Shown piece by piece: positions 4,010-64,000 of a stretch of 64,000 bases of DNA. Both the position numbers and the translations under genes were made by a program. Every line of letters starts with the position of its first letter. Within the stretch, counting starts at the first letter, position 1. The notes beneath the pieces are model-generated. The model was not told where the DNA came from, did not search any database, and saw nothing but the letters and a program-made list of their open reading frames with translations. The DNA comes from Brevibacterium gallinarum (lineage in GTDB: Bacteria > Actinomycetota > Actinomycetes > Actinomycetales > Brevibacteriaceae): the NCBI RefSeq assembly GCF_014836885.1, contig NZ_JACSPY010000009.1, positions 1 through 64,000 of the forward strand, given 5' to 3'.

Positions 4010-5349
4010 CGCGGCACGCGGGTGGTGTCGATGATCGAGGCGAGCACCTGGTCGACGGTGATGCCGTCCATCTGCGCCTCCGGCCGCAGCATGACGCGGT
4101 GACGGAAGGCCGGCGAGATGAGCGTCTTGACGTCATCGGGGGTGACGAAGCCGCGCCCGGACATCCACGCCTGCGCCTGGGCGGCGGCCAGCAGCCGGGT
4201 GCCGCCGCGCGGGGAGATGCCCATCGCGAACGACGGGGCGCTGCGGGTGGCCTGGACAAGGTCGACGATGTAGCCGAGCACCTCGGGATCGACGTAGATG
4301 CCGCCGACCCGCTTGCCGGCCTCGAGGATCGTCGCGGCGTCGGCGACGCGCTCGATGCCGGCATCGGACAGGCGCCGGCCGTCGAAGCCGTGTGCATGGC
4401 GGGTGAGGATCTCGAGTTCGGTGTCCCGCTCGGGCAGTGTGAGCATGAGCTTGAAGAGGAACCGGTCGAGCTGTGCTTCGGGCAGGGGATAGGTGCCGTC
4501 GTGCTCGATCGGGTTCTGGGTCGCGGCGACGAGGAACGGCTGAGGCAGCCGACGGGTCTGCCCGTCGACGGAGACCTGCCGCTCCTCCATCGCCTCCAGC
4601 AGCGCCGACTGGGTCTTCGGAGGGGTGCGGTTGATCTCATCGGCGATGAGCAGGTTGGTGAACACCGGGCCCTCGCGGAACTCGAAGTCCCCGGAGCGGG
4701 TGTCGTAGATCATCGAGCCGGTGACGTCGCCGGGCATCAGGTCGGGGGTGAACTGCACGCGCGTCGAGTCCAGTTCGAGCGCTTCGGCCAGGGCGCGCAC
4801 GAGCAGGGTCTTCGCCACGCCGGGCACGCCTTCGAGCAGCACGTGCCCGTGGCACAGCAGGGCGAGCAGGATCCCGTCGACGGCCTCATGCTGGCCGACG
4901 ACTGCCTTGCCGACCTCATGGCGGACGGCGAGGAATCGCTCGCGCAGTTCGTGGTCGCGCCCGCCGAGCTGGTGCTCGGCCGCCAGCCGCTCGTGGAGTC
5001 CCGGCTGTCCCGCGCCCGAGGCGGTGGGCACCTGTCCGTGAGCCGGAACCTGATTGTGAGACGGAGCCTGTCCATGCGGCTGGCCCGGCACCTGCCCGGC
5101 AGCTGGCGCGGGCGCGTGCCCCGGCTGGCCGGGCTGCTGTTCGTGCGGCTGGCCCGGCACCTGCGCGGGGGCTGGCGCATGCTGCGGCGGCCGCGGTGCC
5201 TGGCCGGGCTGGATCCCCGGCTGACTGCCGCCAGGCCCGCCCGACTGACTGCCGCCGGGCCCGCCCGGCTGCCCGCCCGACCCGAACGGACCAGCAGGCT
5301 GTCCCGGCTGCTGGCCGGGCTGCTGAGGATGGTGGGGAGTGTCGGTCAT
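4006..5349 (-). CDS. MoxR-family AAA+ ATPase with a long Pro/Gly/Gln-rich N-terminal extension
   Basis: Residues from about 130 to the end are a standard MoxR ATPase: Walker A GVPGVAKT, Walker B LLIADEINR, sensor 1 region FLVAATQNPIEHDGTYPLPE and the lid helices. Typical MoxR proteins are about 320-350 residues; this one has 447 because the first ~120 residues are low complexity and rich in Pro, Gly, Gln, Ala and His (repeated GQP and GGSQ-like units). The extension lies in the same open frame as the ATPase core. It is co-translated with its neighbours through 4-nt overlaps (ATGA) on both sides. MoxR ATPases act as chaperones for vWA proteins such as the DUF58 partner encoded next. The tail ends with PTASGAGQPG, encoded by one copy of the window's short repeat. 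Confidence 0.93.
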   Translation of the reverse strand: MTDTPHHPQQPGQQPGQPAGPFGSGGQPGGPGGSQSGGPGGSQPGIQPGQAPRPPQHAPAPAQVPGQPHEQQPGQPGHAPAPAAGQVPGQPHGQAPSHNQVPAHGQVPTASGAGQPGLHERLAAEHQLGGRDHELRERFLAVRHEVGKAVVGQHEAVDGILLALLCHGHVLLEGVPGVAKTLLVRALAEALELDSTRVQFTPDLMPGDVTGSMIYDTRSGDFEFREGPVFTNLLIADEINRTPPKTQSALLEAMEERQVSVDGQTRRLPQPFLVAATQNPIEHDGTYPLPEAQLDRFLFKLMLTLPERDTELEILTRHAHGFDGRRLSDAGIERVADAATILEAGKRVGGIYVDPEVLGYIVDLVQATRSAPSFAMGISPRGGTRLLAAAQAQAWMSGRGFVTPDDVKTLISPAFRHRVMLRPEAQMDGITVDQVLASIIDTTRVPR

Positions 5350-6590: not shown

Positions 6591-7342
6591 GCGCCAGCCT
6601 CCCGGCTTCCCGCGCCCGAGGCGGTGGTCGCGTGATCCGGCGCCGGTCCCGAGGCGGTGCTCGCGTGAACCGATGCCGCTCCCGAGGCGGTGGTCGGGTC
6701 GGCGGCGCCGGTTGCGGCGCGGGCCGCGGTGGCGTGGGAGGTGGCGGCGGAGATCCGTTCGGCCCGGGTCAGCAGGTCCTGCCAGTCGGCGGCACTGGCG
6801 TGGGCTTCGCCGAAGGTCACTGCGTCGAACAGGGCACCGGCGGCATGCGCATCAGCGGCAGCCGGAGGGCAGGCCGCAGCCGCAGCGCCGGCCAGCTCCG
6901 AAGCGGTCGAGGCGGCGGTCATGTCGATGAGGCCGGCGGCGACGAACCGGGCGAAGATCGCCCGCACCCCGTTCTGCACCGCCAGCGTGTAGTCTCCCTT
7001 GCCGGCGGCCGTCTGGGCGGCATCCCAGAAGGCCTGTGGGTTGATCGTCTCGGCCCGCTGGGCGGGGTCGAAGGCGGCGAGGTCGACACCGCCGCTGGTG
7101 CCGCGGCGGACCCGCCGGATGACGAGGACGACGAGTCCGATGACGATCGCGGCGATGATGAGCAGCGTCCACGGCGAGTCGAGCGCGGCAGCACTGTCGA
7201 TGAGCCCGTCGAAGAACCGTTCGATGGCCCGGCCGAGCTTCTCCAGCGGGGAGAGATCGGCGTCGCGGTACTCCGGTTCGGACAGCTTCTTCTCAGCCCA
7301 GCGGCGGGCCTCGTCGCGCTCGGGAGTCAGGGGAGTGCTCAT
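6587..7342 (-). CDS. DUF4129 domain protein with repeat-encoded C-terminal tail
   Basis: The 251-residue protein has one membrane segment (about 58-78, WTLLIIAAIVIGLVVLVIRR) followed by the DUF4129 domain, where the WDAAQTAAGKGDYTLAVQNGVRAIFARFV run fits a TPR-like DUF4129 helix pair. Members of the family are transglutaminase- or MoxR-associated. The last ~35 residues are unusual: three 11-residue units (DPTTASGAASV, HASTASGPAPD, HATTASGAGSR) encoded by three 33-nt copies of the CCCGAGGCGG repeat at 6611-6693. The tail looks disordered and is probably dispensable. Coupled by 4-nt overlaps to its neighbours on both sides. Confidence 0.83.
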   Translation of the reverse strand: MSTPLTPERDEARRWAEKKLSEPEYRDADLSPLEKLGRAIERFFDGLIDSAAALDSPWTLLIIAAIVIGLVVLVIRRVRRGTSGGVDLAAFDPAQRAETINPQAFWDAAQTAAGKGDYTLAVQNGVRAIFARFVAAGLIDMTAASTASELAGAAAAACPPAAADAHAAGALFDAVTFGEAHASAADWQDLLTRAERISAATSHATAARAATGAADPTTASGAASVHASTASGPAPDHATTASGAGSREAGA

Positions 7343-44399: not shown

Positions 44400-45188
44400 A
44401 TGGCCGGATCCCCGCTCGGGTGGCTCTACCGCCTGTACGACCGCCGGGTCAAACGGCAGCTCGAGCACGGCGATGACGCTGCCGCGATCCCGCGTCACGT
44501 CGGGGTCATCACCGACGGCAACCGGCGCTGGGCCAAGGAGTTCGGCAAGACCACCGCTGACGGCCACCGGATGGGCGCAGGCAAGATCGTCGAATTCCTC
44601 GGCTGGTGCGAAGAGCTCGGCGTCGAGGTCGTGACCCTCTATGTGCTCTCGAAGGAGAACCTCGCCCGCTCCGCCGACGAGGTCGCGGCGCTGACCGAGA
44701 TCATCTCCGACCTCGTCGACCAGATCGCCGGCAAGCCGAGCGTGTCCGTCCAGCTCGTCGGTGACCTCGCCACCATTCCCGAACCCCTGCGCACGCGCCT
44801 GGCCGACGCGCAGGAGCGCTCGAATTCCGAGGGCCGCGACAAGCGCATGACCGTCAATGTCGCCGTCGGCTACGGCGGCCGGCAGGAGATCGTCAACGCC
44901 GTCAAGTGCCTGCTGCGCGAACACGCCGCAGCAGGGGAGAACATCGAGGAGATCATCGAGGCGCTGAGCGAAGACGAGATCTCCAAACACCTCTACACCA
45001 AGGGCCAGCCGGACCCCGACCTCATCATCCGCTCCTCAGGCGAACAGCGGCTGTCGGGCTTCATGATGTGGCAGTCGGCGTACTCGGAGTTCTACTTCTG
45101 TGAGGCCTACTGGCCCGACTTCCGCCGCACCGACTTCCTGCGCGCCGTGCGTGCCTACGGCAACCGCAACCGCCGCTTCGGGCGCTGA
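44400..45188 (+). CDS. uppS: Isoprenyl (cis-prenyl) transferase, UppS family
   Basis: A start ATG following AGGAG gives 262 residues. Asp39 in VITDGNRRWAKEFGK is the catalytic aspartate of the UppS family. The substrate region TLYVLSKENLARSADEV and the C-terminal signature DPDLIIRSSGEQRLSGFMMWQSAYSEFYF complete it. It condenses isopentenyl diphosphates in cis. Length and location fit the short-chain (Z)-farnesyl diphosphate synthase of the Rv1086 type as well as a longer-chain UppS; the chain length cannot be told from sequence. Confidence 0.93.
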   Translation: MAGSPLGWLYRLYDRRVKRQLEHGDDAAAIPRHVGVITDGNRRWAKEFGKTTADGHRMGAGKIVEFLGWCEELGVEVVTLYVLSKENLARSADEVAALTEIISDLVDQIAGKPSVSVQLVGDLATIPEPLRTRLADAQERSNSEGRDKRMTVNVAVGYGGRQEIVNAVKCLLREHAAAGENIEEIIEALSEDEISKHLYTKGQPDPDLIIRSSGEQRLSGFMMWQSAYSEFYFCEAYWPDFRRTDFLRAVRAYGNRNRRFGR

Positions 45189-45201
45189 GCCCTGACGCCG
45201 A

Positions 45202-45279
45202 GCCAACCCCGCCTCGGGCTCTCATACCGAGCCAACCACCGCCTCGGGCGTTCGCGCCGGGCCAACCACCGCCTCGGGC
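45202..45279. repeat. Three-copy ~30-bp tandem repeat after uppS
   Basis: GCCAACC(A/C)CGCCTCGGGC recurs at 45202, 45231 and 45261, with variable 11-13-bp spacers. Each copy contains CGCCTCGGGC, the dispersed element in opposite orientation. The array starts just after the uppS stop, ahead of the phoH promoter region. Between 45285 and 45474 the gap holds likely phoH promoter DNA; no gene is seen. Confidence 0.8.
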
Positions 45280-45474
45280 GCGGTGACGACACTCGGCAGG
45301 CGGATTCATCTGAGATTCACCTCCGCATCATGAGACGTCGGAGTGTCGGAGCGCACCACGGCGACTTCGGGTTCATAGATTGGAACCAGTTGGCTGACAC
45401 CAACCCGGAGTGTTCGACTCGTCGGGGAAGGATTGAGCTGGGGCACTTCGGCACACGATGCATAGGGGAGCCCC

Positions 45475-52866: not shown

Positions 52867-54171
52867 TCAGTCGAGGGTGTCGGGCCCGGGTGCGTCTGGG
52901 TGGATGGTGGTGACGTCGGCGTCGAAGCGGCCGCGGGCCAGGCGCACATGGACACCGTCACCGGTGGAGAGCTCTGCGGCGTCGCGGACGGCTGATCCGT
53001 CTGCTGTCTGTACGACGGCGTAGCCGCGCTCCAGGGTGCTCAGCGGGGACAGCGCGCGCACCTGGGCGCGCAGGTGCTCAACGTGGGCAGCACCCTGGGT
53101 CAGGGCGCTGCGCTGTGCCTGGCGGGCGCGGGTGATGAGGGTGGCAAGCTCGTCTTCGCGGGCGCTCACCATCGTCATCGGCTGGGCCATGACCGGCCGG
53201 GAGCGGACACTGTCGAGCCCTGCCTGCTCGCTGCGCAGCAGGCGGTCGAGCGCGCCGTCGAGGCTGGCGCGCGCCTGGAGTAAGTCCATGCGCTCTTCGT
53301 GGATATCGGGCACCAGGCGCTTGGCCGCGTCGGTCGGGGTGGAGGCGCGCAGATCGGCGACATCGTCGAGGATCGGCCGGTCGGCCTCATGCCCGATCGC
53401 GGAGACCACCGGGGTGCGGGCGGCGAACACGGCGCGGATGAGCGACTCGTTCGAAAACGGCAGCAGATCCTCCAGGCTGCCGCCGCCGCGGGCGATGACG
53501 ATGACATCGACAGCCGGATCAGCATCGAGCTCAGCCAGGGCGGCACGCACCTGCGGGACCGCATCCGGGCCCTGGACTGCGGTGTTGCGGATCTCGAACT
53601 CGGCAGCCGGCCAGCGCAGGTGGGCGTTGCGCACCACGTCCTTCTCCGCATCGGAGTTCCGGCCGGTGATGAGCCCGATCCGGTTCGGCAGGAACGGCAA
53701 CGGCTGCTTGAGATCCGGGTCGAAGAGCCCCTCCTCAGCCAGGGTGCGGCGCAGCTTCTCCAACCGGGCGAGCAGCTCACCGAGGCCGACGGGCCTGATG
53801 TCATTGGCGCGCATCATCATCCGTCCGGCCTTGAGCCAGAAGTCGGCCTTGACGTTGACGACGACACGCGAGCCCTCGCTCAGGGGTGTCTCGACCCGGT
53901 CGAGGACGTTGCTGAACACCTGGACCGGCAGCGACATCTCCTCATCGGTGTCGCGCAGGGTGAGGTAGCTGACCTTGCCGCGGCGGTTGAACTCGATGAC
54001 CTGCGCCTCGATCCACACCGCCGACATCCGGTCGATGTAGCTCTTGATGTTGCGGCTGAGCAGGCTGAGCGGCCACGGGTTGTCCGGGGTCGTCTCGGCT
54101 GCCTTGCGCGGCAGCTCCTCGATCGGTTTCTGGCCGAGGGTGCCGGGGGTGCCGCTGATCCGCTGTGCCAC
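52867..54171 (-). CDS. xseA: Exodeoxyribonuclease VII large subunit
   Basis: A GTG start with GGAAGGAG seven bases upstream gives 434 residues. The N-terminal OB-fold ([42 protein letters not shown]) is followed by the catalytic domain with [58 protein letters not shown] and a long coiled-coil. The upstream start at 54339 is rejected because it would run into ispH and lacks a ribosome site. It is the nuclease core of ExoVII. Confidence 0.95.
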
Positions 54172-54280
54172 GCCGGGACTCCTTCCATGTACTGCTGTGC
54201 AGTCTAACGGGAGGGACAGACACCGCCGCCGGTGCAGCACAGCGTGGCCTTTGTGGTGGTGTTCAGCCAAGCCGCCTACC

Positions 54281-55369
54281 ATGGGAGACGTGACTACTGC
54301 AGTGAATCTCCCGGTCCCGTCCGTTCCTCGTGTGCGCAAGGATCCGTCTGAGATCCGCCAGCCGGCAGGCGAGAAGAAGGTGCTGCTGGCCGCCCCGCGC
54401 GGCTACTGCGCCGGCGTCGATCGCGCCGTCATCGCCGTCGAACGCGCCCTCGAGCACTACGGCGCCCCGATCTACGTGCGCAAGGAGATCGTGCACAACC
54501 GCCACGTCGTCGACACGCTCGCCGAACGCGGTGCGATCTTCGTTGACGAGACCTCCGAGGTGCCCGAGGGCGCGCGCGTCGTGTTCTCCGCTCACGGCGT
54601 GTCCCCGCAGGTCCACGCTGAGGCCGCCGAACGCAGCCTCGACACCATCGATGCGACCTGCCCACTGGTGACCAAGGTCCACCGCGAGGCGATCCGGTTC
54701 GCCCGCGACGGCTACTCGATCCTGCTCGTCGGCCACGCCGGGCACGAAGAGGTCGAGGGCACGATGGGTGAGGCACCTGATCACATCACCCTCATCCAGA
54801 ATCCCGAGGAGGCCCGCACCCTCGACATCCCAGAATCGGACAAGATGGTGTGGATCTCGCAGACCACGCTCAGCGTCGACGAGACGATGGAGACCGTCGA
54901 CATCCTCAAGAAGCGCTTCCCGCAGCTCATCGCGCCCCCGAGCGACGACATCTGCTACGCCACCCAGAACCGCCAGGTCGCGGTCAAGAAGATCGCCCCG
55001 GACGCCGACCTCGTCATCGTCGTCGGCTCAGCGAACTCCTCGAACTCCGTGCGCCTCGTCGAGGTCGCCCTCGAACACGGCGCGAAGGCCGCCCACCGCG
55101 TCGACTTCGCCCGCGAGGTCGACGAGGAGTGGTTCAACGACGTCGCCACCGTCGGTGTCACCTCCGGCGCCTCGGTGCCCGAGACGCTTGTCGAGGACGT
55201 GCTCAAGCTCCTGGCCGAATACGGCTACGGCGAGGTCGACGAGGTCCGCACCGCAGAGGAGGACCTGATGTTCTCGCTGCCGCGCGAGCTGCGCAAGGAC
55301 CTCAAGGCCGCCGGCCAGAAGACCTCGAACAAGCGCGACGGCGCCAACCGCGAACACGAGATCGTCTGA
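54281..55369 (+). CDS. ispH: 4-hydroxy-3-methylbut-2-enyl diphosphate reductase
   Basis: The 362-residue enzyme ([10 protein letters not shown]...) carries the three [4Fe-4S] cysteines: Cys43 in [13 protein letters not shown], Cys127 in DATCPLV and Cys225 in [10 protein letters not shown]. Conserved Glu is in HNRHVVDTL and FVDE. It makes isopentenyl and dimethylallyl diphosphate in the last step of the MEP pathway. The first nine codons before a nearby GTG (54290) may be dispensable. It is divergent from xseA, as in mycobacteria. Confidence 0.97.
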
Positions 55370-55432
55370 GGTTTCAGCCGCCCGGCAGGGCAGCTCTACC
55401 CAGGCAGTCGGGCTCAGCTGAGGCAGCCGGGC

Positions 55433-56539
55433 TCAGCCGAGATAGTCGGGCAGGAAGATCCCGACGAGGATGAGCAGCGCGCCGATGAACGCGAACACAG
55501 CCGCCGAGGCGGCCAGCCCCCTGCCTGAAGAGCGCTGCTGCGTGCTCGCTCGCGGGTGACCGATCGCGGTGTGCGGATGCGCGTCCGCGCCGCCGTGAGC
55601 CGCACCGCCCGGCGGCGAGCCGGGCGCCGGTGGGCCCGAGGCCGCACGCCGGTCATCGACGCGCGTCGGATCCGCCTGTGGGACGAGCGCCAGCGTCGGC
55701 GCCGGATCCTGTGGCAGCGCCTTAGAGCTGATGACGCGCTGCGGATGCCACGGGGTGCCGTCGGCAAAGTGGAACGGCCCGCGCAGACCGAGCCGACTGA
55801 GCGCCGCTGCGGCTGTCTCCGGGGTCGGGCGCTGACGGGCGTCGGCGGCCGTGAGGTCATCGAGCAGGTGCACCAGTCCTGAGGCGAGCGGATCGGCGGA
55901 GGTGCGCACCGCCTCGGCGGCGGCCTCGTCGTCGAGACCGAGCATTCGCTTGCCGATCTGCCCGGCCGCCCACACGTCCTGAGCCGGAGAGATGTCACCG
56001 CCCATCATGATCTCCGGGGCGACGAAGCCAGGCGTACCGTGGACGATGCCCGAATGGGTCAGGCGCGGGGCGTTGGTGTCGACGGCGATGCCGAAGTCGG
56101 CGACGAGCAGGTGCACATCGGGTTGTTCAGCGTCGATCATGGTGTTGGCCGGTTTGATGTCCCGGTGGATCCAGCCGGCGACATGCACCGCGGTGAGCCC
56201 GGAGAGGATCTGGCGCATCGCCTCGGCGGTGGCGGCTGCCGAGAACCGGCGGCCGGCGCGCAGCAGACCGGCCAGATCGCCGCCGGTGACCAGCGGCATC
56301 GCGATGACGACGTGGGCATCCTCGGCCGCCCACGCATAGGGGGCGAGCACATGCGGATGGTTGAGGCGCACCGTGTTCTCGCGGACGAAGCGCAGCAGAT
56401 CAGCCGAATCGCGCTGGCGCAGCACCTTCGCCGCGCACAGGTTCCCGAAACGCTCATCGCGGGCGATCCACACCGTGCCCGAACCGCCGCTGGCAATCGG
56501 GTCGAGCAGCGTGAAGCGGCCTGCGATAGTGTCACTCAT
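55433..56539 (-). CDS. Membrane-anchored Ser/Thr protein kinase without an extracellular domain
   Basis: The 368-residue protein has an N-terminal Hanks-type kinase (IASGGSGTVWIARDE glycine loop, Lys38, HRDIKPAN with Asp127, DFG with Asp148, TPGFVAPEI). A Pro/Gly/His-rich linker then leads to one membrane segment (about 342-362, ASAAVFAFIGALLILVGIFLPDYL) and only a few residues outside. All catalytic residues are present. It lies divergently next to a secreted membrane-anchored protein, with 125 nt between. The upstream start at 56629 adds 30 codons with unlike composition and is not adopted. Kinase confidence high; targets unknown. Confidence 0.9.
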   Translation of the reverse strand: MSDTIAGRFTLLDPIASGGSGTVWIARDERFGNLCAAKVLRQRDSADLLRFVRENTVRLNHPHVLAPYAWAAEDAHVVIAMPLVTGGDLAGLLRAGRRFSAAATAEAMRQILSGLTAVHVAGWIHRDIKPANTMIDAEQPDVHLLVADFGIAVDTNAPRLTHSGIVHGTPGFVAPEIMMGGDISPAQDVWAAGQIGKRMLGLDDEAAAEAVRTSADPLASGLVHLLDDLTAADARQRPTPETAAAALSRLGLRGPFHFADGTPWHPQRVISSKALPQDPAPTLALVPQADPTRVDDRRAASGPPAPGSPPGGAAHGGADAHPHTAIGHPRASTQQRSSGRGLAASAAVFAFIGALLILVGIFLPDYLG

Positions 56540-56590
56540 GGTGCCTACTGTAGCCAGAAGCCGCAGACACGAGCACCTGGAAACCGCCCA

Positions 56591-56635
56591 GTGCGCACGG
56601 CACCGAAACCGCCCCGGTGCGCACGGCACCGAAAC
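56591..56635. repeat. Short tandem duplication in the kinase/secreted-protein promoter gap
   Basis: GTGCGCACGGCACCGAAAC occurs at 56591-56609 and again at 56617-56635, a period of 26 bp, with CGCCC-type spacers. It lies in the divergent promoter region, so it may be a duplicated regulator site. No other motif is certain. Confidence 0.65.
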
Positions 56636-56664
56636 TCACGGGCACGGAGAGGGGGGGGAAGGCG

Positions 56665-58014
56665 ATGACAGCGATCACGCCGCTGCGTCGGCTGCCGGCT
56701 GCGCTCACCAGCTGCAGCCTTGCCACCGCCCTCACCGCCGCGCTCTCGCTGACCGTCCTGACAGCCGGCGGCACGCCCGGTGCAGCCGCCGAGTCACCGC
56801 CTGCCGGCCGGCCCGCGGCAGGGACCGAGGTGCGCGGGGGCAGCAGCGTCGATGACGCTGCGACGATCGAACCGGGCAGCTACGCCGACGACATCGACTA
56901 CGAAGACGTGGAGATCGGGCAGAGCCGGACACCGCAGACCTACCGGATCACGCTCGACGACGGCGAGCTCGGTTACCTCTCCGCCAGCCTCATCACCCCG
57001 CTCGAACAGGAGAAAGACTCCATCGGCGCGGCCGCACTCGAACTCACCATCGCCTCCCCGGCCGATGCCTCCTGTGAGATCAGCGCCACCGGCCGGGTCT
57101 CCTCCAGTGACCCGGGACCGGTGATGGTCTCGGCGAACACCGGGGTGCTCGATGGCAACAATCCCAACGACTCCTGCTTCCAGCGCGGGGGCAGCTTCAT
57201 CGTCTCCGTGATCTGGAATGAGACCTATGAGCAGCTGCCGGCGCAGCTGCCGCTTGAGCTGCAGTTCGTGCGCCAGGCCCCGGCCGCATGGTCGCAGCTC
57301 CCGGTGCCCGTCGAAGACCCGCCGGCTGCTGAGTTCCTCCCCGAATCGCTGGCAGAGACCGAGACGCTCACCGGCGGTACCACCGTCAATGCGGCCACAC
57401 GCCTGAGGGACCCGGCCGCTGATGTTGAGGTGCGCACAGGGGTGCGGCACTTCTTCCGTGTCCCCGTCGACGCCGGCCAGCAGCTGAGTGTGCGCGCCCG
57501 TACCTCGGGACCAGCCGATCACCGGCTGACGCTTGCGGTCCTCGACCCGAACCTGCGGCCGGTGGCGATCCGGCGGCCCGGTGAGGAGGGTGCGCCGAGC
57601 TCCGATATGGCAGACGCCAGCGGCTCCGACGGTGAGACCAGTATCGCGATCGACGATGCTGGCGCGACGACGGCGCTCACGACCCGCTACCCGGTGAATC
57701 CGCGCAACGCATTCGTCAGCTTCGAGGAGGCGCACTCCTCGTCGATCGCAGGCGACTACTACATTGCAGTGCTCATCGAACCGCCTTTCGTCGGCGAGGC
57801 GGATACCGGCACCCAGCGGGTGCGGCTGTCCTGGGAGACGACCGGGGAGACGCTGGAGGCCGCTCCCGAGGTGGAGGGCGCTGGGGCCGTCCCGGAACTG
57901 TTCGGCATGGAAGCCGGCCGCCTGGTGCGCGTCGGCGGGCTCGGCTTAGGCGCGGTGTTCCTCGGCATTGCCGGGCTGCTCGCGGTCCTGGCGATCCGCC
58001 GCTCACGACGCTGA
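56665..58014 (+). CDS. Exported membrane-anchored protein next to the Ser/Thr kinase
   Basis: The ATG after GGGGGGAAGG gives 449 residues. It has a Sec-type signal (about 12-42, LTSCSLATALTAALSLTVLTAGGTPGAAA), an extracytoplasmic beta-rich region of about 370 residues with two similar jelly-roll-like halves (one around YRITLDDGELGYLSASLITP, one around HFFRVPVDAGQQLSVRARTS), and a C-terminal membrane segment (LGLGAVFLGIAGLLAVLAIR). Two Cys pairs sit in the first half. The family is not recognised. Divergent position suggests it may signal to or be controlled by the kinase. Confidence 0.6.
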   Translation: MTAITPLRRLPAALTSCSLATALTAALSLTVLTAGGTPGAAAESPPAGRPAAGTEVRGGSSVDDAATIEPGSYADDIDYEDVEIGQSRTPQTYRITLDDGELGYLSASLITPLEQEKDSIGAAALELTIASPADASCEISATGRVSSSDPGPVMVSANTGVLDGNNPNDSCFQRGGSFIVSVIWNETYEQLPAQLPLELQFVRQAPAAWSQLPVPVEDPPAAEFLPESLAETETLTGGTTVNAATRLRDPAADVEVRTGVRHFFRVPVDAGQQLSVRARTSGPADHRLTLAVLDPNLRPVAIRRPGEEGAPSSDMADASGSDGETSIAIDDAGATTALTTRYPVNPRNAFVSFEEAHSSSIAGDYYIAVLIEPPFVGEADTGTQRVRLSWETTGETLEAAPEVEGAGAVPELFGMEAGRLVRVGGLGLGAVFLGIAGLLAVLAIRRSRR

Positions 58015-59184
58015 ACGAGTACTCGGCTGACTGGACCGCGGCTGTCTGCCCGCTGCGGGCTGATCCGGCGTCTGCCGGTCTGCCGGCTGCTGGAGCTCCG
58101 GTGCGGTGAGGCCGCGGGCATGTGCGTCGAGCGGTTCGGCGATGGGGATTTCGGTCGAGCCTGCCCCCATGTCGGTCAGCCGCCGCGCGGTGACGAGCAG
58201 GCGGCTTTCGACGGAGCCGACGAACCGGTTGTAGTCCTCCACACTGCGGTTCATCGACTTGCCCAGCTGCACGAGATGGCCGGCCATCGTGCCGATGCGC
58301 CCGTGCAGCTCCTGGGCTGTGGCCAGCAGCTCACGGGCTGAGCGGGCGAGCTCGTACTGCCGCCAGCCCAAAGCGACTGTGCGCAGCAGTGCGACGAGGG
58401 TGGCCGGGGAGGCGGGGATGACATTGACGGCAAAGGCCTCCTCGAACAGCCGCGGATCCTCCTGCAGCGCAGCCGAGAGCGCACCCTCATTCGGCACGAA
58501 GCACACAACGAAGTCCGGCGTCTGCTCGAAGGCGTTCCAGTATGCCTTCGACGCCAATGTGCGGACGTGGGAGCGCAGCCGCCCGGCCGGACCGGATCCA
58601 TTGCCAGAACCGGTGTCCTGACCGAGGTCGAGCGGGGCCTTGGCGTCGACGACGATCTGCCGGTCACCGGGCAGGTGCACCACCATATCCGGGCGCAGCC
58701 GCTCGCCGCTGCGTCCCTGGACGGTCACCTGCACGTCGAAGTCAACGTGATCGAGCATCCCGGCGGCCTCAACCACGCGCTTGAGCTGCAGCTCACCCCA
58801 CGACCCGCGGGTGCCCGAGGCGTTGAGGGCGGCCACGAGGTTCGACGTCGAGGCCTGCAGCTGCGCATCGACCTGGCTCATGTGCCCGAGCCGGGCATCG
58901 AGACGGGCGAACTGGTCGGTGCGCTCGCGTTCGAAGCCGGTGACATCGGCATGCAGCCGATTCACCTGCGCAGCCAGGGGGCCCATGAGCGCAGCCAGCT
59001 CATGGGTCATCCCGGCATCGGCTTCGAGCGCCTGGAGGCGCTCGGCATGCAGCCGCTCGGCCGTCTGCGCCTGGGCGAGATCGGCCGCCGTGCGGGAGCG
59101 GGCGACTGCGATGCCGATGAAGAAGCCGGCTGCCGCACCGATGAGGAGGACGAGAAGGGTGATGACGATCGTGAGTGCATCCAT
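58003..59184 (-). CDS. rmuC: RmuC family DNA recombination protein
   Basis: The 393-residue protein begins MDALTIVITLLVLLIGAAAGFFIG, an N-terminal membrane anchor, followed by a coiled-coil of about 60 residues and the RmuC domain (GSWGELQLKRVVEAAGM, VTVQGRSGERLRPDMVVHLPGDRQIVVDAKAPL, DFVVCFVPNEGALSAA). RmuC proteins belong to the restriction-endonuclease-like superfamily and limit inverted-repeat recombination. A TTG start four codons earlier (59196) is also possible. Its 3' end overlaps the secreted-protein gene by 12 nt. Confidence 0.88.
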   Translation of the reverse strand: MDALTIVITLLVLLIGAAAGFFIGIAVARSRTAADLAQAQTAERLHAERLQALEADAGMTHELAALMGPLAAQVNRLHADVTGFERERTDQFARLDARLGHMSQVDAQLQASTSNLVAALNASGTRGSWGELQLKRVVEAAGMLDHVDFDVQVTVQGRSGERLRPDMVVHLPGDRQIVVDAKAPLDLGQDTGSGNGSGPAGRLRSHVRTLASKAYWNAFEQTPDFVVCFVPNEGALSAALQEDPRLFEEAFAVNVIPASPATLVALLRTVALGWRQYELARSARELLATAQELHGRIGTMAGHLVQLGKSMNRSVEDYNRFVGSVESRLLVTARRLTDMGAGSTEIPIAEPLDAHARGLTAPELQQPADRQTPDQPAAGRQPRSSQPSTRSAS

Positions 59185-59304
59185 GCTCACAGTCAATCAG
59201 GAGGGACGGACAACGGGGCCCGGTCACGGCTGCCGGCCACCGCCTCGGGCGCGGAGGACCAGCCGGCATGCTGGCACCCAGGCCAGCGGCTACACTGGGG
59301 GATC

Positions 59305-60390
59305 GTGGCTTTAACTATCGGAATCGTCGGACTGCCCAACGTCGGCAAGTCGACCATGTTCAACGCATTGACCAAGAACCAGGTGCTGGCAGCGAACTAC
59401 CCGTTCGCGACGATCGAGCCGAACATCGGCGTCGTCGAACTGCCCGACGAGCGGCTGACCCGGCTGGCGGAGATCTTCGGATCCGGCAAGATCCTGCCGG
59501 CAACGGTGAACTTCGTCGACATCGCCGGCATCGTCCGCGGCGCCTCGGAAGGTGAGGGGCTGGGCAACCAGTTCCTGGCCAACATCCGCGAGGCCGACGC
59601 GATCTGCCAGGTGATCCGCGGATTCAGCGATTCCGACGTCGTCCACGTCGACGGCAAGGTCAACCCGGCCGATGACATCGACACGATCAACACCGAGCTC
59701 ATCCTCGCTGACCTGCAGACCCTCGAACGGGCGCTGCCCCGGATCGAGAAGGAGGTCAAGCAGAAGCGCGCCGAACCCGAAGTGCTCGCCGCGATGCAGG
59801 AGGCGCAGGGGATCCTGGAGGAAGGGCGCACGCTGTACCAGGCGATGCAGGCCGATGGGTTCGACGCCGCGCCGCTGCGCGAGCTGCAGCTCATGACGAC
59901 CAAGCCGTTCCTCTATGTCTTCAACGTCGATGACGATGTGCTGGCCGATGAGGCGAAGAAGGACGAGATGCGCGCACTGGTCGCCCCGGTCGAGGCGATC
60001 TTCCTCGATGCGAAGTTCGAGTCCGAGCTCGCTGAGCTCGACGATGAGGAAGCCGCAGAGATGCTCGAGATGAGCGGGCAGGACGAGGCGGGTCTCGACC
60101 AGCTGGCGCGTGTGGGCTTCAACACGCTCGGTCTGCAGACCTACCTGACTGCCGGGCCGAAGGAGGCGCGGGCCTGGACGATCCGCAAGGGCTGGACCGC
60201 GCCCGAGGCCGCCGGCGTCATCCACACCGACTTCCAGAAGGGCTTCATCAAGGCTGAGATCGTTTCCTTCGACGACCTCGACGCGCTCGGCTCCATGGCC
60301 GAGGCACGTGCTGCCGGCAAGGTTCGCATGGAGGGCAAGGACTACGTCATGGTCGACGGGGATGTCGTGGAGTTCCGGTTTAACGTCTAA
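59305..60390 (+). CDS. ychF: Redox-regulated ATPase YchF (OBG family)
   Basis: A GTG start gives a 361-residue protein: VALTIGIVGLPNVGKSTMFNALTKN (P-loop at about 9-16), FVDIAGIVRGASEGEGLGNQFLA (switch II), VFNVDDDVL in place of the GTP-specific NKxD motif, and a C-terminal TGS-like domain (AWTIRKGWTAPEAAGVIHTDFQKGFIKAEIV). YchF binds ATP rather than GTP and associates with ribosomes. It is the last gene of the mycobacteria-like block; the next genes are accessory. Confidence 0.97.
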   Translation: MALTIGIVGLPNVGKSTMFNALTKNQVLAANYPFATIEPNIGVVELPDERLTRLAEIFGSGKILPATVNFVDIAGIVRGASEGEGLGNQFLANIREADAICQVIRGFSDSDVVHVDGKVNPADDIDTINTELILADLQTLERALPRIEKEVKQKRAEPEVLAAMQEAQGILEEGRTLYQAMQADGFDAAPLRELQLMTTKPFLYVFNVDDDVLADEAKKDEMRALVAPVEAIFLDAKFESELAELDDEEAAEMLEMSGQDEAGLDQLARVGFNTLGLQTYLTAGPKEARAWTIRKGWTAPEAAGVIHTDFQKGFIKAEIVSFDDLDALGSMAEARAAGKVRMEGKDYVMVDGDVVEFRFNV

Positions 60391-60412
60391 CGTTATTGAC
60401 GTAGAGCGTTAA
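60380..60412. promoter_or_regulatory. Inverted-repeat operator candidate of the higBA operon
   Basis: Between and over the ychF stop codon, TTAACG (60380-60385) and CGTTAA (60407-60412) form an inverted repeat with an internal TAACGTTA palindrome (60388-60395). The location immediately before higB and the TAACGT half-sites fit autoregulation by the HigA antitoxin. No strong -35/-10 pair could be assigned. Confidence 0.5.
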
Positions 60413-60430
60413 GCGTGGCACGCTGTAGGT

Positions 60431-60712
60431 GTGATCAGATCCTTCGCCGACAAGGCGACCGAGCGACTTTGGCATCGCGATAAGGTGCCGTCGGTCGATC
60501 CCCGTGTCCAGAAGGCAGCCATTCGAAAGCTGACGCAGATCCACGCCGCTCGATTCCTCGACTCGCTGCGTGTGCCACCTGGCAACAGGTTGGAGTCGCT
60601 TAAAGGCGACCGTATGGGACAGTACAGCATCCGTGTCAACGAACAGTGGCGAATCTGTTTCACCTGGTCAGAAGGAGGTGCAGAGAATGTCGAACTCGTC
60701 GACTACCACTGA
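60431..60712 (+). CDS. higB: HigB/RelE-type toxin
   Basis: The 93-residue protein (MIRSFADKATERLWHRD, GTG start) has the HigB/RelE fold pattern. The C-terminal catalytic-type segment, LKGDRMGQYSIRVNEQWRICFTW, contains the conserved Arg and Tyr residues of ribosome-dependent mRNA interferases. It precedes the antitoxin gene, the HigBA order, and overlaps it by 26 nt. Toxicity is inferred from family only. Confidence 0.88.
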   Translation: MIRSFADKATERLWHRDKVPSVDPRVQKAAIRKLTQIHAARFLDSLRVPPGNRLESLKGDRMGQYSIRVNEQWRICFTWSEGGAENVELVDYH

Positions 60713-61001
60713 GCGATGGGATCCCGTTCATCCAGGTGAGGTTCTCATGGAGGACTTCATCGAAGGGTTCGGGATCACGCAGAACAAGCTGGCTGTATCC
60801 ATCGGCGTGCCACCACGCCGCATCAATGAGATAGTGCACGGCAAGCGTGCGATCACTGCTGACACGGCGTTGCGCCTTGGGCGGTACTTCGGGATCGACC
60901 CGCAGTTTTGGCTCAACCTGCAGGCACACTATGAGCTGGAGCTAGCCCAGGAGCGAGTGTCTGAGCAGATTGCCGCAATCACTCCGCTGAAGGTCGCGTG
61001 A
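60687..61001 (+). CDS. higA: HigA antitoxin (VapI/Xre family)
   Basis: The ATG after AAGGAGGTG gives 104 residues with the HigA helix-turn-helix: WDPVHPGEVLMEDFIEGFGITQNKLAVSIGVPPRRINEIVHGKRAITADTALRLGRYFG. The C-terminal FWLNLQAHYELELAQERV pattern is characteristic of HigA. It neutralises HigB and represses the operon. The last codons overlap the GTG start of a carbamoyltransferase by four bases (GTGA), so the enzyme is translationally coupled to the antitoxin, an uncommon arrangement. Confidence 0.92.
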   Translation: MSNSSTTTERWDPVHPGEVLMEDFIEGFGITQNKLAVSIGVPPRRINEIVHGKRAITADTALRLGRYFGIDPQFWLNLQAHYELELAQERVSEQIAAITPLKVA

Positions 61002-61838
61002 GTGAGGAAGCCGTCATCGGGCGGCACCTGCTCTCGCTGCGTGATTGGGATTCCGAGGAACTCAAAGAGTTCTTTGCGCTAGCCGACCGATATGTGGCGG
61101 GGTCGGGCCCGCGATTCGACGCAGCGGCGGCCGTGTTCTTTCCGCCGTCGAGTCTGCGCACACGCGCCTCCTTCGAGCGCGGTGCCAGCCTCATGGGGAT
61201 CCAGCCGATTGGGTTTCCGCCGGAGTCCCTCGACAAGGCAGAAGACCTGACGGACGTCGCGGGGTATCTCGCGCAATGGGTCGACCTCGTAGTCGTGCGG
61301 TATCCTGACATCGGAGTGCTTGAAGGGCTGGCATCAGGGGATGCATTGCCAGTCATCAATGCGATGACGAACGTGAACCACCCCTGTGAAGTGATGTCGG
61401 ATCTCTACGCGCTCTCGCGCGATGCCGACATCGCACAGTTGCGGTACCTGTTCGTGGGCGCTGATGGAAACATCGCCGGAGCGTGGTGGGAAGCAGCCCA
61501 GGCATTCGGCCTCGACCATGAGGCAGAGCTGCCCCGCTGATCTGCGCGTCCCCGGCATGCCCTGGGAAGGGAACCTGCGTCGTGCGATGCTGACGGCTGA
61601 CGTGGTGATCACGGATGGTCCGGGTCCTCACGCCGAGGCGCTCGTGCCATATCGTGTGACAGCCGAGCTGCTTGATACGGCTCCGCGGGGAGTGCGGTTG
61701 GTGCCGTGCCCTCCGTTTGTGCGAGGGCGAGAGGTCAGTGCCGATGCCGTTGTGCACAGCCCCTTTGTCGGCTACGAGTTCAAGCGTTTTCTCATGCCCG
61801 TTCAACAAGCTGTGATGGCTCGAGCGTTGATGAGCTGA
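60998..61838 (+). pseudogene. Frameshifted aspartate/ornithine carbamoyltransferase-like gene coupled to higA
   Basis: Frame 1 (60998-61540) has the carbamoyl-phosphate motif SLRTRASFE (residues 52-60) and the second motif NHPCEVMSDLYAL (Cys130-Glu131 region, the HPCE type of ornithine-like enzymes), then runs out in AFGLDHEAELPR. Frame 2 continues with the missing second half from about 61518 (MRQSCPADLRVPGMPWEG through the C-terminus DGPGPHAEALVPYRVTAELLDT, SADAVVHSPFVGYEFKRFLMPVQQAVM). A single extra base near 61517 explains the break, so a full product of about 280 residues needs a +1/-1 correction. It is either a recent pseudogene, a sequencing error, or a programmed frameshift. The half-enzymes would not be active alone. 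Confidence 0.8.
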
Positions 61839-62377: not shown

Positions 62378-63286
62378 TCACGCAGCGCGTGTAGACGCTT
62401 TTTCTCCGACCTGGCCGGCACTCTGCTCGGCCAAGAACTTCTCTTCGAACTCCACCGGCGGGACCATTCCCAACGCCGAGTGCAACCGCCGTCGGTTATA
62501 GACCACTTCGATCCAGCCAGCGACTGCCCGCATTGCTTCAGCCCGGTTCTGCCACACTCGCCGCTCGAAGAACTCCGTTTTCAACGACGACCAGAATGAT
62601 TCCGACATCGCGTTATCCCAACACACCCCAGTCCGGCCCACCGATTGCTTAAGCCCCAGTTCGACAGATGCCTGATGCAACTGAGCCGACGTGTATTGCG
62701 CGCCTTTGTCCGCATGAAATATGACGTCATCTGGAACCATTTCTCTTAATGTATGAGCCATCCTCAACGCCCGTTCCACGAGGTCAGAATTCTGCCGATC
62801 GGCCATTGCCCAGCCGATCACTCGGCGTGAGCATCCATCGCGGATCACACACAAATACACGAACCCTTCCCACGTGCGAAGATACGTAATATCACTGATC
62901 CACACAGCATCCAACTCACCTCGGTCCCAGACCCGTTTCACGAGGTCCGGAATGTGATGAGTCGCCACACCCGGCAGAGTCGTCACCGGCTTGAACCTGC
63001 GCGGGCTGATCCCTTCAAGGCCCTGCCTGCGCAGCGATGCCGCGACTGTCTTCTCATCCACGCACACGCCTTGTCGAGCCAATTGCGCTGCCACCCGCGG
63101 TGCCCCGTAGACACCATCAGACTCCGCATGGACCGCTGCGACCTGCCCGTCAAGATTACGTTGCGCTCTGCTGCGCTTCGAAGCTCCGGCCTGCCGGCGC
63201 TTCTTCCATGCGTAGTACCCGGATCTCGTCACATCAAGGAGTCTGGCCATCCGGCGGATCGCGTAGCGTGCCTTCTCCGAGTCCAT
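62378..63286 (-). CDS. IS3-family transposase OrfB (DDE integrase)
   Basis: The 302-residue OrfB has the RNase H-like DDE core: first Asp in ISDITYLRTW, second in HADKGAQYTSAQLHQ, Glu in MSESFWSSLKTEFF. The C-terminal part (YNRRRLHSALGMVPPVEFEE) is characteristic of IS3 elements. Its ATG shares one base with the OrfA stop (TGATG). In IS3 elements OrfAB is also made by frameshifting; the OrfB frame is open upstream (EKFEL before MDSEK), compatible with that. Confidence 0.93.
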   Translation of the reverse strand: MDSEKARYAIRRMARLLDVTRSGYYAWKKRRQAGASKRSRAQRNLDGQVAAVHAESDGVYGAPRVAAQLARQGVCVDEKTVAASLRRQGLEGISPRRFKPVTTLPGVATHHIPDLVKRVWDRGELDAVWISDITYLRTWEGFVYLCVIRDGCSRRVIGWAMADRQNSDLVERALRMAHTLREMVPDDVIFHADKGAQYTSAQLHQASVELGLKQSVGRTGVCWDNAMSESFWSSLKTEFFERRVWQNRAEAMRAVAGWIEVVYNRRRLHSALGMVPPVEFEEKFLAEQSAGQVGEKASTRAA

Positions 63287-63612
63287 CAGTTCGAATTTCT
63301 CTTGTTTCGAGGCTTCGACGCGAAGAAGGCGGCTGCTTTTCCCAGGAACTCATTGTCCTGTTTCAGATCGAAGTTCTCCCGCCTCAACCGTGCCAATTCA
63401 GCCCGCTCATCCTCGTTCAACGCGCCCGTGGATTCCCCGTCGACGCGACGCCGGTCCTTCTCTGCTTTCACCCAGGTGCCCAGGGTCTGCTCACCGACTC
63501 CGATTTCCCTGGCCACCGCAGCAATAGACCTGCCAGTGTCAATGACAAGACCCGCAGCCTCGACCCGATACTCCTGAGTATAAGAACGCCGCTGGCGCTT
63601 CTGATCTGACAT
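63286..63612 (-). CDS. IS3-family transposase OrfA
   Basis: The ATG at 63612 (MSDQKRQRRSYTQEYRVEAAG) gives 108 residues. A helix-turn-helix of the IS3/IS911 type (YRVEAAGLVIDTGRSIAAVAREIGVGEQTLGTWVKAEKDRR) is followed by a leucine-zipper-like helix (ERAELARLRRENFDLKQDNEFLGKAAAFFA). It binds the element ends. A longer start at 63621 is possible. Confidence 0.9.
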   Translation of the reverse strand: MSDQKRQRRSYTQEYRVEAAGLVIDTGRSIAAVAREIGVGEQTLGTWVKAEKDRRRVDGESTGALNEDERAELARLRRENFDLKQDNEFLGKAAAFFASKPRNKRNSN

Positions 63613-64000
63613 ACTGAACATCCTTCCAGCAGGACAGCAAATCCCGCTAACTTGGGTGTCCACTAATCGAGGGTAACCTCACTGGTGGCAACCGCTGATT
63701 TCATTAGCGTCAGCAGTTCTGGGTGCTCTTGTCGGCGGATTTGTCGTCCACAAACTTACCCTGCGAAGGGAGGCCGTCAACGCTAGGAGGACGCAGAGGG
63801 TTGCCTTTCTGCTGGATGCTTACCGCAAACTGATCGACGCATCTGAACGGGATGTGCTTAGTTCTCAGCGTCAAGACAATCTTGAGGCAGCGCTCGCTGA
63901 CGTGATGCTCCTAGGTGGTCAGCATGAAATTCGTGCGGCGGATTGCTTCCAGCGGGAATTCGCGGAAGGAAAGAGTTCTTCCCTCGTTCCCGTTATCGAG

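Follow-up and report, generated by a model that had tools for sequence, protein, structure and literature searches.

How does a bacterial Ser/Thr kinase take in a signal from outside when almost none of the protein lies there? To our knowledge, an outside-signal input is known for few bacterial Ser/Thr kinases. The question is raised by a locus of Brevibacterium gallinarum, within a stretch of 64,000 nucleotides (the window), in which a gene for a kinase and a gene for a predicted exported, membrane-anchored protein are divergent, with 125 bases between them. An earlier note on this DNA had proposed that the exported protein may supply the sensing half of a two-protein kinase system. On the evidence set out below we consider it reasonably probable that their products form a single signalling unit across the membrane, namely a split receptor kinase.

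The kinase, its exported neighbour and the DNA between them

The kinase gene (55433–56539, minus strand; 368 residues) is 85% identical to a gene in a second genome of the genus, G019, and most likely starts at the ATG at 56539, which is the start in G019 as well; the mechanical open reading frame begins at 56629. The product matches Pfam Pkinase (PF00069, E 5e-33) and contains Lys38, HRDIKPAN, DFG and APE, the domain and catalytic motifs of a bacterial eukaryotic-type Ser/Thr kinase; among solved structures it matches mycobacterial PknA (1.9e-29). Its last ~25 residues hold a membrane helix (about residues 343–362; 55454–55513, minus strand), predicted from sequence and hydropathy and common to relatives. 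Because only five or six residues lie beyond that terminal hydrophobic stretch, the kinase has no ectodomain, in agreement with the external sensor having been described as missing.

The window's kinase belongs to a subfamily that forms a single clade against 15 other kinases (SH-aLRT 100, in a tree of 66 hand-picked kinases that includes 51 of the subfamily). In 80 genomes taken as part of the class sample, subfamily members also separate by score, at least 238 bits as opposed to at most 212 for the rest. No more than 10 residues follow the last helix in 75 of 84 members, as compared with 3 of 99 other kinases drawn from the same set of loci. Seven of the nine exceptions (L085, L086, L087, L089, L092, L109 and L222) end in a small segment outside, containing two Cys and one Trp; the remaining ones are the L080 kinase, with 29 residues, and the L241 kinase, in which no helix was found. 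The two-Cys/Trp segment is similar among the seven loci, and is perhaps a mini-domain contacting the exported partner.

The neighbouring gene (56665–58014, plus strand; ATG at 56665) encodes 449 residues with a signal-peptide-like N-terminus, two beta-sandwich domains, a modelled C-terminal membrane helix (residues 428–448; 57946–58008, plus strand) and the C-terminal end RRSRR, which bears out the description of an exported, membrane-anchored protein. An AlphaFold2 model made from ten sequences has a mean pLDDT of 59.3, with ten-residue blocks of both domains mostly at 56 to 90 and loops lower. The first modelled domain (about residues 52–206; 56818–57282, plus strand) holds Cys137 and Cys171, the disulfide candidates, which all 19 aligned homologues share; the second (about residues 233–397; 57361–57855, plus strand) has a weak PPC match at residues 262–299, below cut-off. 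The two similar, beta-rich halves that had been pointed out correspond to these two domains in the model; a sequence match between the halves was not found.

The best Foldseek match of the model is 5iku (E 3.4e-10), in which two collagen-binding domains of ColG stand in tandem; it covers both domains, and the top row from VIA-align (3jqw, Z 11.9) also uses both halves. The first domain aligns with 1nqd (Z 11.7, rmsd 2.2, 108 aligned, model residues 52–203), a match that places this domain in the collagen-binding/PPC beta-sandwich fold, and is, as modelled, clearly collagen-binding-like. The second appears closest to the PliG, Tk-SP and p24 GOLD domains, its best single-domain rows being PliG (4dzg, Z 10.5), Tk-SP (9ues/3afg, Z 10.4) and GOLD (7rrm, Z 10.2). 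At the family level the exported protein stays below every Pfam cut-off and is unmatched in NCBIfam at E 1; the PPC family (PF04151) scores 15.1 bits against a cut-off of 25.9, and among the exported proteins scanned no Pfam or NCBIfam cut-off was reached for the shared module. Pfam found no VWA domain in the window's protein (P0002). P0004 of G019 has such a domain, as does P0005 of the window's genome, which holds a longer paralogue with VWA ahead of the same module.

The topology predicted from these sequences is that of a kinase that is held in the membrane at its very C-terminal end and has next to nothing outside, and a partner with two domains outside, one membrane helix and a few basic residues inside. 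Collagen-binding-type domains bind polymers, as in ColG and ColH. The fold match to such domains lends some weight to the main rival reading, a reversed flow, in which the kinase would control envelope assembly or the exported protein itself, and the latter would be an effector, or an anchor for polymers of the wall or surface, and not a sensor. We regard this as doubtful. One objection is that the cytoplasmic tail, with its few basic residues, would be a poor substrate; this objection is weak, as Ser or Thr occurs in 20 of 51 scored tails and the window's own tail has one Ser, so that the exported protein becomes only a less likely kinase substrate. A second objection is that a kinase without an ectodomain needs some input.

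Between the genes, the stretch upstream of the kinase start (56540–56559, minus strand) is kept in the alignment with G019 and includes TACAGT seven bases before the kinase ATG, which may serve as the -10 box for a leaderless kinase transcript, and a purine-rich stretch (56646–56662, plus strand) is the likely ribosome-binding site of the exported protein. The 26-bp tandem duplication previously seen here is real (56580–56635; period 26, 2.2 copies, 93% matches, score 98); five tandem arrays in the 64-kb window score at least 98. Its designation as a promoter element was not borne out, and stays unconfirmed because a promoter scan of 55300–58200 found no sigma-70-like site. A conserved promoter duplication was rejected, as the element is absent from G019 and its 19-bp core is found exactly at two places in the genome only, both within 56580–56635; the element is private to the window's genome. 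An RNA element search of 54000–60500 found no Rfam match at gathering score.

Elsewhere in the window, the GC-rich motif CCACCGCCTCGGGCGC is a dispersed small repeat, with 35 occurrences at up to three mismatches against 6.6 expected; its sites include 5012–5027, 6612–6693, 45170–45281 and 59237–59252, and it occurs several times in 30–33-bp tandem arrays. A HigB-like toxin gene (E 7.9e-20) with an overlapping antitoxin-like HTH gene is located at 60431–61001, a gene for a carbamoyltransferase N-terminal domain that stops early and may continue in a different frame, at 60998–61838, and transposase-like genes at 62378–63663.

Recurrence of the pair across genomes

We defined the pair as a kinase of the subfamily clade with a C-terminal helix and an adjacent exported partner, all of which the window has. 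Stretches were taken for the matches in the order and class, and their open reading frames were scored with a profile for each of the two families. Searching for the exported gene gave 66 loci at which that gene lacks VWA, and at 60 of them (17 of 19 for the order, 43 of 47 for the class) a subfamily kinase lies in the stretch. Since the kinase profile derives from 20 kinases of the window and order loci, it is the class set that counts as independent. Counted by open reading frame the figure is 63 of 70, with 13 pairs divergent and 50 convergent, since L079, L081, L219 and L255 give two frames each. The two genes are less than 1.6 kb apart except at L256 (2.3 kb, with another exported gene between). 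The six VWA-less loci without a kinase comprise L041, which is a downstream frame of the VWA gene of a third genome of the genus, G010; L081 and L198, which are contig ends; and L214, L216 and L254, away from contig ends.

Using a profile with clipped rows, we found a VWA match upstream of the module in none of 71 testable VWA-less frames and in 52 of 55 positive controls; the 71 were drawn from 79, the rest having fewer than 30 residues before the module. VWA-bearing loci have a kinase in 23 of 53 cases, and in 11 of the 23 a VWA-less copy is present as well. Of the 30 loci that have only VWA-bearing copies and no subfamily kinase in the stretch, L090, L101 and L242 end near a contig end. That VWA-bearing forms are often without a kinase is a further point for the reversed flow. 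At 11 loci (L086, L189, L195, L197, L203, L206, L209, L210, L225, L226 and L256) VWA-bearing and VWA-less genes sit beside one kinase, as if two alternative ectodomain partners served it.

Approached from the kinase side, and among the matches listed, the exported gene is present at 9 of the best 12 kinase loci in named genomes (seven Streptomyces, Actinobacteria bacterium OV320 and Embleya scabrispora), and the exported family was found at none of 68 other-kinase loci. The 80 genomes contain 11 subfamily kinases in 9 genomes, 7 of them with the exported gene adjacent. By genome, both genes occur in 8, the kinase only in 1, the exported gene only in 3 and neither in 68 (Fisher p 5e-8, with genomes that are related and not independent).

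Taken together, the two genes stand side by side in loci of eight family codes (f1, f6, f11, f17, f18, f37, f38 and f45) and in Streptomyces and Embleya, and the pairing of the kinase subfamily with the exported family is well supported. The synteny across genera on which the earlier note had staked its proposal is thus present. The opposite outcome, genes not consistently adjacent, also occurs in part: a kinase is found at 12 of 42 loci with only VWA-bearing copies and not at L214, L216 or L254, a neighbouring partner is missing for 4 of the 11 kinases, and, among the matches listed, three Nocardioides kinase loci are without an exported gene within 6 kb. The divergent order holds for the window, f1, f11 except L080, Embleya and L235; the other scored loci, and with them most relatives, are convergent, so that this arrangement is lineage-specific.

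The varying orientation would also suit genes that are kept together by a shared envelope process, without direct contact of their products. Among 25 representative pair loci the largest clusters of conserved frames are the kinase, exported and HTH genes, together with opposite-strand frames overlapping the first two, and several further clusters are common to four or five loci of f17 and f45, so that old gene order alone could keep some pairs. We nevertheless think a shared process without contact unlikely, as convergent genes have no common promoter, the pair turns up in varied surroundings, and the kinases sister to those of the window's genus have exported partners of another lineage. Further flanking frames are common to L086, L222, L225 and L231 (f17, f45), where the module therefore lies in an old conserved neighbourhood.

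The exported family was found in 3 of 57 genomes of the genus, 27 of 396 of the order and 81 of 394 of the class. The kinase, sought in 13 of the 57, gave a match above 100 bits in the window's genome and G019 only, and the pair was found in these two genomes of the genus. The same divergent pair is present in G019, where it lies between ispH and rmuC. At that site G010 carries a VWA-bearing form, frameshifted in its contig, and the kinase was not found in the 19-kb stretch; the VWA protein there extends over two frames (L041, 9967–12000) through mutation or assembly error. At 25 of 28 other loci of the genus ispH is close to rmuC and the kinase, exported and VWA queries are unmatched; the other three have rmuC only. 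So narrow a presence within the genus would fit chance neighbours, a reading made barely credible by recurrence across families, with controls.

Partner lineages and the HTH gene

In a tree of the exported module with 35 hand-picked rows, the window's protein and its G019 orthologue join the VWA proteins of the genus (99/98), and the kinase-linked f11 forms are a separate group (100/99). The kinases of the window's genus are sister to the f11 kinases (98). As read from these trees, the window's exported partner is of a different lineage from the partners of its sister kinases. A single clade of kinase-linked f1 and f11 exported forms is disfavoured: forcing one, for a group chosen after the first tree, gives −21 log units (AU p 0.0145). 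In a larger exported tree, which used 102 of 134 rows (133 and the window), ten gains or losses have to be assumed for the VWA-less state; because the VWA domain was gained or lost at least ten times, it is unnecessary for pairing. On independent branches a sign test of VWA-lessness against kinase presence was not significant (median p 0.125, leaving out contig-edge loci and L254 and scoring the frameshifted G010 gene as VWA-bearing). A Streptomyces row is placed among f37 rows in both the exported and the kinase trees, so that the class covered is the one to which Streptomyces belongs.

A third gene, for an HTH DNA-binding protein, is found at 60 of 81 loci with both genes (one match, at L255, is weak), at 2 of 36 exported-only loci and at none of 3 kinase-only loci, by a profile built from 15 of the pair loci; at 68 other-kinase control loci it was not found among the matches listed. 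Its product has generic HTH matches only in Pfam, a SAPMLSQL stretch that is invariant in ten aligned rows and, in several cases, a Ser/Thr-rich stretch after the HTH. In many relatives the XRE-like HTH protein encoded beside the pair is the likely kinase target. A search across the order genomes found the gene in 15 of 396 and not in the window's genome or G019; in the window's genome, therefore, another target would be used.

The patchy presence in the genus, and the matches of the kinase to defence-kinase models of PADLOC (best E 1.6e-42), could point to a kinase module against phages, of the PD-T4-6 or MADS type. We consider this highly improbable. The best PADLOC matches listed cover the catalytic domain, as they do for kinases at large, and at E 0.001 PADLOC gave no match for the exported protein, for its VWA relative or for the HTH protein.

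A proposed split receptor kinase and the closest known systems

What stands of the two-protein system first proposed is the association, by synteny; sensing by the exported protein is what we infer. In a split receptor kinase, the exported domains would detect something at the cell surface or wall, by binding it or by monitoring it, the membrane helices of the two proteins would pair, sensing together with helix pairing would change kinase activity, and the kinase would phosphorylate the HTH protein where there is one. A wider proposal, which we advance tentatively and rate a little short of even, is a class-wide family of split receptor Ser/Thr kinases. Each would combine a tail-anchored kinase with an exchangeable ectodomain protein, exported and either VWA-bearing or VWA-less, and often with an HTH regulator of its own, as an actinobacterial counterpart of two-component signalling that is built on Ser/Thr phosphorylation; the partner in the window's genus would come from another lineage, recruited among VWA-type proteins at the ispH–rmuC site of relatives.

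In the open-licence PMC literature, covered mostly at the level of title and abstract start, we recognised no account of the pair, and the passages seen of PMC4416010, PMC4391728 and PMC4681348 do not concern it. In Streptomyces and relatives, the ectodomain-less kinase subfamily, the exported protein and the frequent HTH protein name the likely input and output of an uncharacterised pathway, both of which are open to single-gene removals.

In Streptomyces coelicolor, PkaI and SCO4775–4779 make up a five-kinase cluster tied to wall synthesis (PMC4416010). The likeness to the window's kinase is that these are actinobacterial kinases; the difference is the five-kinase cluster itself, with no exported partner of the window's kind seen in the passages available of that source (PMC4416010). 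ColG and ColH share with the window's exported protein the fold of the first domain (1nqd) and the tandem arrangement (5iku), but the window's protein is membrane-anchored and without a protease, and for its second domain PliG, Tk-SP and GOLD are the nearer matches. Kinases of the PknB/Stk1 type resemble the window's kinase in having a Ser/Thr kinase domain inside and a membrane helix. Unlike the window's kinase, they carry a PASTA ectodomain in the same chain, and the NCBIfam PASTA model scores 128 bits on the window's kinase against a cut-off of 450. In receptors like LuxP/LuxQ, a separate extracytoplasmic protein gives ligand binding to a membrane kinase, which in that case is a histidine kinase with a periplasmic domain of its own. 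The likeness to the window's pair, which implies no homology, lies in the proposed two-protein receptor layout.
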